Positions 53,443 to 60,191 of a DNA stretch of 64,000 bases are shown here, one piece after another. Position 1 is the first letter of the stretch, and the number at the start of each line of letters is the position of its first letter. The notes beneath the pieces were generated by a model that was not told the DNA's origin, did no database searches, and saw nothing but the letters and a program-made list of their open reading frames with translations. The DNA comes from an uncultured Mycoplasmatota bacterium (GTDB lineage: Bacteria; Bacillota_I; Bacilli_A; RF39; UBA660). The stretch spans positions 62,001 through 126,000 of the forward strand of contig CANTCQ010000002.1 in NCBI GenBank assembly GCA_947652325.1, written 5' to 3'. The position numbers and the translations under genes are program-made.

Positions 53443-56025
53443 ATGAAAAAATTAATATTAGTAGATGGGAATAACCTTTTGTTTAGGAGTTATTATGCAA
53501 CTGCCTATACAGGAAAAATGATGAAAAATTCAAAAAACTTTCCAACCAATGCCCTTTATGGATTTGTTTCCATGATGAGCAAAATTATTACAGAAGAAAA
53601 TCCAGAGTATATAGCTGTGGCTTTTGATATTGGCAAAAACTTTCGAGCGGAAAAATATGATTTTTACAAAGAAGGGCGAAAAGAAACACCAAACGAGTTA
53701 ATTATGCAAATGCCATATGCAAGAAAAATACTAAAGGGAATGGGAATCCAATATTTTGAACTGGCTCCATACGAAGCAGATGATATTATTGGAACGCTTT
53801 CTAAAAAAGTAGTAGAAGACCTAAATTTTGTGGCGACCATTATCTCAAGCGATAGAGACTTACTTCAGCTTATTAATGACCAAGTCGATATGAAACTATT
53901 AAAACAAAAAGGGCACATTCGTTACAATCCGATTAGCTTTTTTGCTGATTTTCAAATAGAACCTGTAAACATTATTGATTTAAAAGCCCTTGCTGGAGAT
54001 GCATCTGACAATATTCCAGGAGTAAAAGGAATCGGAGAAAAAACAGCCCTTCATTTACTTTCTACTTATAAAACTATAGAAGGGATTTATGAAAATATCG
54101 ATAACATTAAAGGAAAAATGCAAGAAAAATTAATTTCAGATAAAGACATGGCTTTTGTAAGTAAAGAAATTGCAACTATTTATAATGAAGTACCCCTGGA
54201 TATAAAAGATTTAGAAGATTTAAAATACGTTCCAACAATAGAAAGTAAGGAATTACAAGAAATTTATGAGGAATTGGAATTTTATTCTTTATTAAAAAAT
54301 TTTACGAAGAAAGAAAAAACCAATTATTTAGAAAATATGATAAGATTAGAAAATTCAGAAGACTTAAAATTAGATAATATTGTATCCTTTTATATCGAAG
54401 TAGATAGTCCAAATTATCATACGGGAAATATTTTAGGAATGGCTTTAACAGATAAAGAAAATACGTATTATATAAAAAAAGATTTCATAAAAGAATGTAT
54501 ACCTAAATTAAAAGACAAAATCTTATATACTTTTGATTTAAAGAAAAGTATAGTCTCTTTACATAAATTAGGGATTTCTTTAACTGAAGTGAACTACGAT
54601 TTAATGCTTGCAAGTTATCTTTTAAACTATAATATAAAAGATGATATTGCATACCTTATGAAATCAGAAGGATATGAAGTTGAATTCTACGAAGATACCA
54701 TTGCCAAAGGAAAGTTTGAAATCGAAAAAATCATTCCTGAGATAGCTTTAAAAAGTAAATTTATTTATGATACTCGGGATAAATTTATTCTCGATTTGAA
54801 ACGAGAAGATATGTTTGAATTATTTTCTACCATGGAAATGCCTTTAATTTCGGTTCTTGCAGATATGGAAATAACTGGAGTAAAAGTGGACCGTCAAATT
54901 CTTGAAGAAATGAAAGAAGAATTAAAAATTAAAATTGAACGTATATCCCATGAAATTTATAATTTAGCAGGAGAAGAATTTAATATCGCAAGTACTAAAC
55001 AACTTGGAGAAATTTTATTTATTAAATTAGGTTTACCAGGAGGCGTAAAAACGCAAAAAGGATACAAGACAGATGTAAAAGTGATGCATAAATTACTAGG
55101 AAGCCATCCAATTATTGAAAAAGTATTGGAATATCGAAATTTAACGAAAATTTATTCCACCTACATTGAAGGACTTGAAAACTTTATTTACGAAGATGGT
55201 CGTGTGCATACTATTTTTAAACAAACCCTAACTCGTACAGGAAGATTATCTTCTGTTGAACCAAACATTCAAAATATTCCTATCCGTGACGAAGGAGGAA
55301 GAAAAATAAGAAAAGCATTCTTACCTTCTAACGACTCATTTTTAAGCGCTGATTATTCGCAAATCGAATTAAGAATACTAGCACATATTTCGGACAGCCA
55401 AGAACTAAAGAATGCGTTTATAAACGATGCAGATATTCATACCAAAGTAGCAGCAGATATTTATGGAGTGCCAGAAATAGCGGTTACCAAAAAAATGCGT
55501 TCAACAGCGAAAGCAGTTATTTTTGGAATCGTTTATGGGATAAGTGGGTTTGGTTTAGGAGAAAATTTAGAAATTAGTGCCAAAGAAGCTAAAAAATTTA
55601 TTGAAAAATACTATGAATTATACCCTGGCGTAAAACGATATATGTATGAAATTGTTGCAGAAGCTTATCAAGAAGGAAGTGTACGCACTTTATTTAACCG
55701 TAAAAGAGAAATTGAAGAGTTAAATTCTTCTAATTTTATGGTCCGTCAAGCAGGAGAGAGAATAGCTCTTAATACTCCAATACAAGGCACCAGTGCAGAC
55801 ATTATAAAAAAAGCCATGATTGATATTTATGAAGAATTTAAACGTTTAGATATTAAAAGCAAATTAGTGATTCAAGTACACGATGAACTTATCATTGATT
55901 TAATCGAAAGTGAAAAAGAATTAGTAACCAAAATCGTAACAGAAAAAATGACAAATGCGATAAAACTTTCTGTACCTTTAAAAGTAAGTAGTGATTATGG
56001 ACGAGATTGGTATGAGACAAAATAG
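53443..56025 (+). CDS. polA: DNA polymerase I
   Basis: The 860-residue protein has an N-terminal 5'-nuclease domain (ILVDGNNLLFRSYYA, EADDIIGTL, SSDRDLLQL, GDASDNIPGVKGIGEKTA), a degenerate 3'-5' exonuclease domain lacking the DxE motif (VSFYIEVDSP), and a polymerase domain. The polymerase shows TGRLSSVEPNIQNIPIR, SADYSQIELRILAH, MRSTAKAVIFGIVYGISGFGL and VHDELI. It fills gaps in repair and removes RNA primers. Loss of proofreading is usual in Bacillota PolA. An ATG for the following broken gene overlaps its end. In Bacillus mutM follows polA; here 2.6 kb intervenes. Confidence 0.96.
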   Translation: MKKLILVDGNNLLFRSYYATAYTGKMMKNSKNFPTNALYGFVSMMSKIITEENPEYIAVAFDIGKNFRAEKYDFYKEGRKETPNELIMQMPYARKILKGMGIQYFELAPYEADDIIGTLSKKVVEDLNFVATIISSDRDLLQLINDQVDMKLLKQKGHIRYNPISFFADFQIEPVNIIDLKALAGDASDNIPGVKGIGEKTALHLLSTYKTIEGIYENIDNIKGKMQEKLISDKDMAFVSKEIATIYNEVPLDIKDLEDLKYVPTIESKELQEIYEELEFYSLLKNFTKKEKTNYLENMIRLENSEDLKLDNIVSFYIEVDSPNYHTGNILGMALTDKENTYYIKKDFIKECIPKLKDKILYTFDLKKSIVSLHKLGISLTEVNYDLMLASYLLNYNIKDDIAYLMKSEGYEVEFYEDTIAKGKFEIEKIIPEIALKSKFIYDTRDKFILDLKREDMFELFSTMEMPLISVLADMEITGVKVDRQILEEMKEELKIKIERISHEIYNLAGEEFNIASTKQLGEILFIKLGLPGGVKTQKGYKTDVKVMHKLLGSHPIIEKVLEYRNLTKIYSTYIEGLENFIYEDGRVHTIFKQTLTRTGRLSSVEPNIQNIPIRDEGGRKIRKAFLPSNDSFLSADYSQIELRILAHISDSQELKNAFINDADIHTKVAADIYGVPEIAVTKKMRSTAKAVIFGIVYGISGFGLGENLEISAKEAKKFIEKYYELYPGVKRYMYEIVAEAYQEGSVRTLFNRKREIEELNSSNFMVRQAGERIALNTPIQGTSADIIKKAMIDIYEEFKRLDIKSKLVIQVHDELIIDLIESEKELVTKIVTEKMTNAIKLSVPLKVSSDYGRDWYETK

Positions 56026-56472
56026 TGTATTATTAACAGGATTTAAAAATAGTAGCTCGACTTTATTATTAGATAAAGTTTCTAAGCAATATTCTAAATT
56101 TCTTTTTACAAAAAATTGATACATTATTTGAAATGAAAAAAACAGAATTATGTGATTATGTTTGGACAAAAACTCTTAATTAAAAATCTAGCAATAGAAG
56201 TGATGTGTAAACAGAAAACGAATTTTTTAAAAACGAATTTTCCTTTGAAAAAATTACTGGCTATTTTGGAAAAAAACAAGATTAGCTATATAATAAGTCA
56301 AAATCCAGGAACATCTTATTGTAATTTTGCTTACTATTATGTTTTAAAATATTTAGAGGCTAGAAAAATAGATACAAAAGTTATTTTTATTCATATTCTT
56401 TATGAAAAGAATTTTACAGAGTTTGATGCTTTGGTTGCTTTATTAAATCAAATAGACAAAGGGAGAGTATGA
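56012..56472 (+). pseudogene. Pyroglutamyl-peptidase I (Pcp) gene broken by two frameshifts
   Basis: Three frames together spell a Pcp-like protein of about 153 residues: SVLLTGFKNSSSTLLLDKVS from ATG 56012, then KIDTLFEMKK, then NYVIMFGQKLLIKNLAIEV and YIISQNPGTSYCNFAYYYVLKYL with the catalytic Cys and a FIHI His. The shifts fall exactly in an A6 run (56110-56115) and an A7 run (56136-56142). Removing one A from each joins the frames without stops. The product would be shorter than usual Pcp (about 200-215). Either decay or homopolymer sequence error explains this. The start overlaps the polA stop. Confidence 0.75.
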
Positions 56473-56473
56473 T

Positions 56474-57734
56474 ATGACCAAAAACCAGTGATAGGAATTA
56501 TTCCTACTTTCAATTTAAATAATGATGCAAATGACCCCTATCAAGATAGAGCAAGTTTTGTCACTATGTATAGTGAAAAAATTAAGGAAAGTGGAGGTAT
56601 CCCTCTTGGAATTTTAAGTGATGCTTCCTTATATACCTCTTTATGTGATGGCTATTTGTGGCCTGGAGGGAACAAGATTTTAAAAGAATACATTCCTATA
56701 ATAGAAGATGCCGTGAAAAATAATAAACCTGTGTTAGGAATTTGCCTCGGTGCCCAAACGATTGCCACAGTTTTAAATGTAATAGAAGACCAACAAGAAA
56801 ATCAAGCAAAAAGTTTTAAAGAAACTTATGACTTAAACAAAGAAACAAAACCTTATTTAAGAAAATTAGAAGATGAAAATATCCATTTACATGTTGTTAC
56901 GAAAGAAAAAGAAACAATAGATAAGGCTAGACATAAAGTGAAAATACAAAAGAATAGTTTATTGCATGAAATTTTTGGTTGTGATGATTTAAGTTTACAT
57001 GGAATGTTTATTGCAAGAACACCAAAAATGTACTTGTAAGTGCCCAGTCAGAAGATAAAGTGATAGAAGCAGTAGAATACAAAGAAAATGGTTCTTTATT
57101 ATTAGGAGTTCAATTTCATCCAGAAATAGAAGAAGAGAACCCATTATTTGATTGGTTAGTTTCATCAACTAAAAAATATTTGACGTTAGTAAATCGCGAA
57201 AACCCTATAAAATATTATGAAAATTACAAAATTGTTCCTTATAAGTCAAAATATCCGAAATGCCAAAGAGATAGTAATCTAGAGGAAAATACAGCAATAG
57301 CTTGGAAAAAATTACAGAATTTTCTAAAAGAAAATGGCTATAATGCAGAAATTGAAAGTGCTTATCGCCCAAAGGGACTACAAGAAGAAATTTACAATCA
57401 AATAAAAAGCGATGAAGGTACTGATTATGCAGAGGTTTATGTAGCAAAACTTGGATATAGTGAGCATGAACTTGGACTTGCCATTGATGTATGTTTACAA
57501 AAGAATGAATTATGGCTTTGTGGTTTTGAAGAAGAACTTAGTCCTTTTTATACTTTTTTAGAAGAACACTGTTCTAATTTTGGTTTTATTATTCGCTACC
57601 CAAAAGGAAAAGAACAAATTACAAAGTACAACTATGAGCCTTGGCATATAAGATATGTTGGTTCTATAGAGATAGCAAAAGAAATAATGGCCAAACATGT
57701 AACACTTGAAGAATACTTATGCGAAAAATACTGA
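56474..57734 (+). pseudogene. Class-I glutamine amidotransferase-like / VanY D,D-carboxypeptidase fusion gene broken by two frameshifts
   Basis: From ATG 56474 (RBS GGGAGAG) the frame MTKK shifts in an A5 run (56480-56484) to PVIGIIPTFNLN. It continues as a C26-type gamma-glutamyl hydrolase/GATase domain with LWPGGN, GICLGAQ (nucleophile Cys) and HGMF. A second shift in an A5 run (57024-57028) leads to NVLVSAQSEDKVIEAV and GVQFHPEIEE (His-Glu of the triad). It then continues as an M15 VanY domain (SAYRPKGL, GYSEHELGLAIDV, EPWHIRYVG). Adding one A at each run restores one frame of about 420 residues. No signal peptide is seen. All catalytic residues are kept, so decay is recent or the shifts are sequence errors. 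Confidence 0.75.
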
Positions 57735-57749
57735 AATTAGGAATAATTC

Positions 57750-57778
57750 TTGTATTTTTTTAAGAATAACATTATAAT
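57750..57778 (+). promoter_or_regulatory. Sigma-A promoter
   Basis: TTGTAT at 57750-57755 and TATAAT at 57773-57778 with a 17-base spacer, upstream of the zincin-like gene. Confidence 0.55.
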
Positions 57779-57801
57779 AGGGCTCAAATGAGGAATTAAT
57801 C

Positions 57802-58617
57802 ATGACATTAGAAGAAAAAACAATTTTCAATTTAAAAAAACTATTAAATGAACATATAAAATCAAAAGTAGGTCTTGATTTTTTTTATGACAGTATTGCG
57901 TTATTAAATCAAGATTGCTTATTCCAAAATTGTTTGCAAACAAAAATTGTGGAAAAAGAACAAGGACTATCCTTTTCCACCAAAACGCTAGAAATTCAAA
58001 TAAATCCTCAAAGTAATGAAAAAATGATTGAAAAAGAAATAAAAGAACTTGTACAGTATCAAACATTAGAAAGAAAAATACAAGTATTTAATATGTATTT
58101 TATTTTTGCTCTTTTACACGAAGTAAAACACATTAATCAAGTGGAAGTAGCACTAAATTCACATTTAGAACAAAATTTTACGCAACAAGCACATCGTATT
58201 TGGTATGATTTTATGCTAAGCCCTATGTCTAACTATAAGCAAAGAATTTATGAATTGTATAATAAGTATCATAACTTTCTCTTTTTTGAACGAGAAGCAA
58301 ATATTTTCAGTTTGCAAATTGTTTTACAATTATTTGATGTTCCTCTATTAAAAAGTTATTGCCAAAGGAATTTACTATCCCATTTTAAAATTGGCTATAT
58401 TAATAAAGGTCCTTTTATTAAATCCCCAATAGAATATACATGCAATTTATTTGGAAGTAGTATTGATATAACAGCAATGCCAAATTGCACTTTTATGGAA
58501 AAAATGGAAATGGGACTTCCTCTTAAGGAGAGCGAAATGCTACAATTAATAAATATTTTTAAATTGAAATATGAAACAAATGAAGAGATTATTAAAAGTT
58601 TAAAGAAAATTGCTTAA
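57802..58617 (+). CDS. Zincin-like protein of unknown family (HExxH)
   Basis: This 271-residue protein carries HEVKH (residues 106-110) in a helix YFIFALLHEVKHINQVE, and a downstream Glu-rich FEREAN helix (about 162-167) able to give the third zinc ligand, as in gluzincins. There is no signal peptide or membrane helix, so a cytoplasmic metalloprotease or a phage-derived protein is possible. The family is not recognised. Its stop lies 17 bases before mutM, whose RBS it overlaps, so the two are cotranscribed. Confidence 0.55.
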   Translation: MTLEEKTIFNLKKLLNEHIKSKVGLDFFYDSIALLNQDCLFQNCLQTKIVEKEQGLSFSTKTLEIQINPQSNEKMIEKEIKELVQYQTLERKIQVFNMYFIFALLHEVKHINQVEVALNSHLEQNFTQQAHRIWYDFMLSPMSNYKQRIYELYNKYHNFLFFEREANIFSLQIVLQLFDVPLLKSYCQRNLLSHFKIGYINKGPFIKSPIEYTCNLFGSSIDITAMPNCTFMEKMEMGLPLKESEMLQLINIFKLKYETNEEIIKSLKKIA

Positions 58618-58633
58618 TAAAGGAGAAAGTTTT

Positions 58634-59452
58634 ATGCCAGAAATTGCGGAAGTGGAAACGGTAAGAAATACATTAAAAAAGCAAATATTATATAAAAAAA
58701 TAAGAGAAGTAAAAATTTTATATGAGCAAATGATAGAAAGTGATATAGAAGAATTTAAAAATAGCTTAAAAAACAATCAGTTTGTAGATATTAAAAGAAG
58801 AGGAAAATGGCTCTTATTTGAATTAGAAAATCATTATCTTTTGAGCCATTTACGTATGGAAGGAAAATTCTTTTTAAAATTCCACCATGAACCTATTGTA
58901 AAACATGAACATATTATTATTACTTTTAGCGATAATACTGATTTAAGATATCATGATACAAGGAAATTTGGCCGCATGAATTTAATCAAAAAAGAAGAAT
59001 TAAAAACTTGCAAGTCTATTGCTAAACAAGGCTTAGAGCCAGGAGAAAAAGAATTAACGGCAGATTATTTATTAGAAAGTTTTAAAAGCAAAACGATGCC
59101 CATTAAAACCATTTTACTGGACCAAACCATTATTAGTGGTCTTGGAAATATCTATGCTAACGAAGTGTTATTTGCATCTAAAATTAATCCGTTTAAAAAA
59201 GGAAATAGGATTACAAAAAAAGAGGCCCAAATGATTGTAATATCAGCAGATAAAATTATTACAAGAGCTATAGAACTTGGTGGCACAACTATTAAAAGTT
59301 ACACCTCAAGCCTTGGGGTTACAGGAAGATTTCAACAAGAACTTATGGTACATAAAAGAGAAAATGAAGAATGTAGGAATTGCCATAACAAAATAAAAAA
59401 GGAAAAAATCGGTGGGAGAAGTACTTATTATTGTCCAACTTGTCAAAAATAA
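58634..59452 (+). CDS. mutM: Formamidopyrimidine-DNA glycosylase
   Basis: The start ATG 58634 gives the essential N-terminal MPEIAEVETV (Pro2 is the nucleophile and Glu3 the catalytic acid), behind AAAGGAG. The 272-residue enzyme has HLRMEGKF, YHDTRKFGRM, the H2TH region GLGNIYANEVLF, and a C-terminal zinc finger with CRNC and CPTC. It excises 8-oxoguanine and Fapy lesions. In Bacillus it follows polA; here a block of unrelated peptidase-like genes separates them. Confidence 0.96.
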   Translation: MPEIAEVETVRNTLKKQILYKKIREVKILYEQMIESDIEEFKNSLKNNQFVDIKRRGKWLLFELENHYLLSHLRMEGKFFLKFHHEPIVKHEHIIITFSDNTDLRYHDTRKFGRMNLIKKEELKTCKSIAKQGLEPGEKELTADYLLESFKSKTMPIKTILLDQTIISGLGNIYANEVLFASKINPFKKGNRITKKEAQMIVISADKIITRAIELGGTTIKSYTSSLGVTGRFQQELMVHKRENEECRNCHNKIKKEKIGGRSTYYCPTCQK

Positions 59453-59525: not shown

Positions 59526-59554
59526 TTGACAAAATATTCAAAAAAGAATAGTAT
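59526..59554 (+). promoter_or_regulatory. Sigma-A promoter
   Basis: TTGACA at 59526-59531 and TAGTAT at 59549-59554 with a 17-base spacer. This shows that the following gene starts at ATG 59580 rather than further upstream. Confidence 0.6.
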
Positions 59555-59579
59555 AGAGAGCAATAAAAGAGGGAGATTT

Positions 59580-60191
59580 ATGGAATTTGAAGAATTATTT
59601 GTTGCTTATTTAAACGAATGGACTCTTGAAATTGAAAACAAAAAAACGAGTAAAATTTATAAATCAATTTTAAAAGATATTAAAATTTGGTTTTATGAAG
59701 TTTCTAAAACCAAGAAAAACATTCAAAAAAGTAGAAAAAAAATGGAAAGAGAATATTTAGCTATAAGAATACAATTTCCAAGTATAGAAGAAGCTGTTAT
59801 TTTAAAGGACACTCAAATCGTTTTAAATGGTTTTAATAGATTAATGATATATTTTGATGAACAAGAAAACAATATAGATACTTACTTGAATATTTTAGAA
59901 GGTTTGCATAATATAACAATGGAATATTATAAAGATGTAAAAACAGAAAATAAAAACACTTTATTATATATTCGTGTATTACTAGAAATATTTTTAGAAG
60001 CATATGAAAGAGACATAACAACTTTTGAAAAAGTTACTTTACAAATAACCGATGCTATAGAAAAAGAACAAATACCTATTTTAGATTATGCCCATCATGT
60101 TTATTTCTTAAAAGATTTCCTTTTACAAAAAATAAGTTGTGAAAAAAATTTAAATTTTGCTAGATATCAAAAAGAAACAATGAATCGTTGA
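59580..60191 (+). CDS. Unknown all-helical cytoplasmic protein
   Basis: The 203-residue protein starts at ATG 59580 with GAGGGAGA. It is predicted helical throughout (for example FEELFVAYLNEWTLEIENK, LLYIRVLLEIFLEAYERD), without membrane segments or recognised motifs. It is a lone gene convergent with tmcAL. The name and role cannot be assigned. Confidence 0.5.
   Translation: MEFEELFVAYLNEWTLEIENKKTSKIYKSILKDIKIWFYEVSKTKKNIQKSRKKMEREYLAIRIQFPSIEEAVILKDTQIVLNGFNRLMIYFDEQENNIDTYLNILEGLHNITMEYYKDVKTENKNTLLYIRVLLEIFLEAYERDITTFEKVTLQITDAIEKEQIPILDYAHHVYFLKDFLLQKISCEKNLNFARYQKETMNR

Follow-up and report, generated by a model that had tools for sequence, protein, structure and literature searches.

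Two adjacent genes between polA and mutM, one for a Pcp-like peptidase and the other for a Peptidase_C26 GATase fused to a VanY domain, are broken by at least five small lesions relative to their counterparts in related genomes (net -23, +1, -1, -9 and -1 bases). Joint and recent pseudogenization of the pair is the probable explanation, and we hold it with good confidence. The genome is a 1.27 Mb draft in 16 contigs, and the window, which is the whole stretch of DNA that was analysed, comprises 64,000 nucleotides (bases 62001-126000 of contig C2) with a G+C content of 28%. Its nearest named relatives in a scan of reference genomes are metagenome-assembled genomes of uncultured 'Bacilli' or 'Tenericutes', one of them from wild mice; the matches are sister species only, and the scan may leave out records of the genome itself or of one very near to it. 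A preliminary description of this DNA had offered three explanations for the broken frames: a recent loss of function in both genes together, phase variation through slippage at the A-tracts, and homopolymer error in the assembly. The first is the best supported of the three.

Results

All genes of the locus lie on the + strand. The upstream neighbour polA (53443-56025) is intact, full length and in one frame when compared with G015, a genome of the same genus, and its stop overlaps the start of the Pcp-like gene, exactly as it does in G015 and in a second same-genus genome, G019. The Pcp-like gene, of the Peptidase_C15 family (56012-56472), is divided into an N-terminal frame (56012-56110) and a C-terminal frame (56152-56472), the latter holding the Cys and His of the catalytic triad. 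The fusion gene (56475-57734) is likewise divided, into a GATase frame (56488-57039) and a VanY frame (57027/57060-57734). Re-reading the frames placed the breaks about where the preliminary description had put them, and its statement that the catalytic residues are kept agrees with our alignments, in which the broken pieces hold the same active-site residues as the relatives' intact proteins. Further downstream are an intact gene for a 271-aa protein with no assigned family (57802-58617), in a slot position common only to G005, and an intact mutM (58610-59452). The 271-aa protein is without a Pfam or NCBIfam match and has a counterpart in G005 only, at 53% identity, whereas the genes around it are 71-80% identical to those of G005. 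The region 3' of mutM (59526-60191) encodes a 221-aa protein with only a weak NCBIfam match (ESAT6_2, far under the cut-off), and in the relatives its place is taken by various other small genes.

The lesions are more varied than the four single-base frameshifts, all in poly(A) runs, that had initially been described. The A6 run at 56110-56115, which had been thought to carry one A too many, is instead the junction of a net 23-base deletion in a DNA alignment of the locus with G015, G019 and G005, with G015 and G019 both having 23 bases more. The FLF...YV segment measures 26 codons in five of the six intact Pcps and 25 in G019, against 56 nt in the window. A net gain of one base falls within 56129-56152 in the DNA alignment, an interval containing the A7 run at 56136-56142; the extra base probably sits in that run, as had been proposed, a placement taken from the alignment alone. 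In the start region of the fusion gene, an A5 run (56480-56484) is one base under the A6 of G015 and G019, with loss of the in-frame ATG, which fits the one missing A postulated there. A 9-base in-frame deletion at 56992-56993, absent from the earlier list of lesions, takes out part of a VVSLH strand that does not vary among the 11 relatives compared. At the boundary between the GATase and VanY frames, DNA alignment shows a net loss of one base at CC/A5 (57022-57028). One base is indeed missing here, but the loss may adjoin the A5 run at 57024-57028 to which it had been assigned: G005, which has the closest fusion, reads CCG followed by an identical A5, and the base lost may have been the wobble position of the proline codon, next to the run, rather than one of its adenines. 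What stands of the original count is thus three single-base events in or beside A-runs, whereas the 23- and 9-base deletions and the base that possibly lay outside a run depart from it.

To set these lesions against the local background, 95 kb of G015 was compared with the window, which gave a control of 20 collinear genes (29.3 kb). All 20 are in one frame against G015 and only Pcp and the fusion are broken, so that the clustering of lesions noted at the outset is strong. The control genes contain 428 A/T runs of 5 or more, and the two broken genes 25. With no error among the 428, the 95% upper bound is 0.7% per run; at that bound, three or more errors among the 25 would have a probability of ~0.0007. 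Because 20 collinear genes with 428 runs all remain in frame, uniform or random homopolymer error is unlikely as the cause. The position of the single-base events adds little: A-runs of at least 5 make up 6% of the locus, and because 14-35% of intervals of 6-30 nt fall within 5 nt of such a run, three of three events at A-runs represent only a modest enrichment, consistent with slippage as the mutational source. A more selective form of error would have the three single-base events as homopolymer miscalls or artefacts of a consensus built from mixed strains, with the 23- and 9-base differences being real variation. Such a combination would account for the placement of all three events in or beside A-runs and for a substitution pattern without decay (see below), and a 24-base in-frame deletion with one extra A would mimic the first lesion. 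However, there is no other frameshift in the collinear coding DNA despite its many comparable runs, and the 23- and 9-base deletions, for which homopolymer error gives no account, removed conserved sequence and would probably have damaged Pcp, at the least, in any case. We consider assembly or sequencing error unlikely overall, and the lesions as a whole are not explained by it; a local failure of the consensus or a mixture of strains may conceivably lie behind the three single-base events.

Relative-rate tests on the GATase and VanY parts against G005, G015 and G019 gave no excess of amino-acid replacements on the window lineage (all non-significant), and dN/dS between the window copy and its relatives is 0.09-0.31. 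At positions invariant in the other copies, the window fusion deviates no more than the intact ones; the window Pcp has leucine at two otherwise invariant proline positions, and distant intact copies deviate equally often. Relaxed selection, which is expected of old pseudogenes but not required of recent ones, was not seen, given that the fusion is without a replacement excess and Pcp is ambiguous. Across 542 codons no in-frame stop has been gained, and this rules out more than ~45 neutral substitutions. Because there is no excess decay in substitutions and no stop has been acquired, the inactivation, if real, was recent. The missing decay counts against pseudogenization, as does the high number of indels, five, relative to the few substitutions; a mutator background was considered and rejected, the mismatch repair genes mutS (847 aa) and mutL (583 aa) both being present and open. 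The same constraint could be read as a sign that each piece works as a protein in its own right, such as a lone VanY domain made from an internal start, and the VanY frame runs open over 224 codons, with intact zinc-ligand motifs and a low dN/dS. Yet no good internal start is evident, the sole one listed being a GTG preceded by a weak purine stretch, and the GATase part is constrained as well, so the constraint reflects recency. Separate function is very improbable.

Short A-runs could also act as switches. Phase variation, in which replication slippage at the runs would toggle the two peptidase genes, would suit the presence of several runs across two adjacent genes and the intact catalytic residues. 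The runs are only A5-A7, however, with no long conserved homopolymer tract among them: G015, G019 and G005 do not conserve them, and at two sites they are absent or interrupted in the relatives. This lack of conservation makes both phase variation and programmed slippage unlikely; moreover, expression would depend on a number of independent sites being correct simultaneously, and two of the lesions are larger deletions rather than run slippage, which leaves phase variation with hardly any probability. Alternatively, the genes could be pseudo-pseudogenes whose reading is restored by slippage during transcription or by frameshifting on the ribosome, a rescue reported from insect endosymbionts with long poly(A) tracts. 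Rescue would be in keeping with an AT-rich genome and is known for A-tracts of ~9 or more (PMC1088944, PMC3017870), nine being a widely used length for slippage-prone runs (PMC1088944). But runs of A5-A7 are too short for efficient rescue, a shortness already remarked on in the preliminary description. The endosymbiont cases are single shifts in longer tracts (PMC3017870), whereas each gene here would need two shifts corrected, and one-base slippage cannot restore the ancestral Pcp across a 23-base deletion. Rescue is therefore extremely improbable.

Joint pseudogenization presupposes intact orthologs, and the comparison with relatives suggested earlier does find them in the same genus at the polA-mutM position. 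An intact Pcp is present there in six same-genus genomes (G015, G019, G011, G014, G020 and G021), and a full-length open fusion in seven relatives (G006, G007, G010, G013, G015, G017 and G018), with a partial copy in G005 that is open up to the contig end. Pcp occurs in 7 of 22 genomes and the fusion in 10, the window genome included; C26 alone is found in G002 and G020, and some relatives are without one or both of Pcp and the fusion. Apparent internal stops in G011 and G020 were rejected as they are the ends of ordinary genes. The deep branches of a tree of polA and mutM are weakly supported. Elsewhere in the window genome there are one further C26 gene and three further VanY genes, and no other Pcp family match was found in it.

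The content of the polA-mutM slot is species-dependent in the genus (window 56012-58617; loci L035, L036, L079-L082 and L057), the alternatives being Pcp, C26 alone, the C26-VanY fusion, a serine-hydrolase-like gene (G021), a 170-aa gene (G011) and the 271-aa gene (G000, G005). The fusion of G019 (L036, G019:C53) has a TGA in place of a leucine codon directly after the cysteine that is the GATase catalytic nucleophile and is otherwise intact, an apparent independent inactivation. Recoding of this TGA was rejected, as it stands for a leucine and not a tryptophan codon.

All three families were recognized above Pfam cut-offs: Peptidase_C15 at 28 bits (cut-off 22.7) in a partial match (profile 113-169), Peptidase_C26 at 45.8 (20.5) and VanY (PF02557) at 110 (25). 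The Pcp-like protein resembles pyroglutamyl-peptidase I (Peptidase_C15, PF01470; TIGR00504) in that the E, C, H triad can be aligned in the intact relatives and the PF01470 match spans its C-terminal half, but it has ~160 aa rather than ~205-215 and scores far under the NCBIfam equivalog cut-offs (39 versus 202 bits). The fusion has the GICLGAQ and FHPE motifs of the Peptidase_C26/gamma-glutamyl hydrolase class I GATases (PF07722) and the SEHELGLAID and EPWH motifs of VanY/VanXY/LdcB (PF02557); it differs from both systems in joining the two domains in a single protein of cytosolic type that lacks a signal peptide. In intact fusions (L035 in G015 and those of other relatives) each half scores with known families. 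No NCBIfam model spans both the C26 and VanY halves, and nothing specific on a C26-VanY enzyme was found in the literature. In their intact form both proteins probably process peptides in the cytosol, as a short Pcp-like pyroglutamyl peptidase and a gamma-glutamyl-hydrolase-type GATase fused to a D,D/L,D-carboxypeptidase, and they plausibly act on murein-derived or gamma-glutamyl peptides.

Discussion

Joint and recent loss of the two genes would have begun with a pair that was dispensable in the window lineage; after a first hit, small indels would have built up, including some from slippage in the short A-runs of a 28% G+C genome. The variable gene set of the slot, the TGA in G019 and the further C26 and VanY genes of the window genome support loss of a dispensable pair. 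The locus resembles the recent small-indel pseudogenes of AT-rich reduced host-associated genomes such as Blochmannia (PMC3017870) in its single-base shifts at A-runs, its intact relatives and the convergent loss in sister lineages, but differs in its far shorter runs (A5-A7) and in having larger deletions among its lesions.

Incomplete peptidoglycan pathways, lost several times, have been reported for RF39 and related orders (PMC10868615); in a genome of that kind, the need for murein-peptide enzymes could disappear. It is possible, although on balance doubtful, that the polA-mutM slot of the genus is an optional cassette, repeatedly gained and lost, whose intact form, an uncharacterised C26 GATase-VanY fusion enzyme with a minimal Pcp, makes up a murein-peptide scavenging pathway, and that its loss marks lineages no longer using or making those peptides.

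A cluster of frameshifts that resembles homopolymer trouble can be resolved by alignment with sister species. The intact fusion enzyme of the relatives is of modest biochemical interest, and the broken pair, if pseudogenized as we think probable, would be a clean example of how gene loss begins in a genus of uncultured gut Bacilli.
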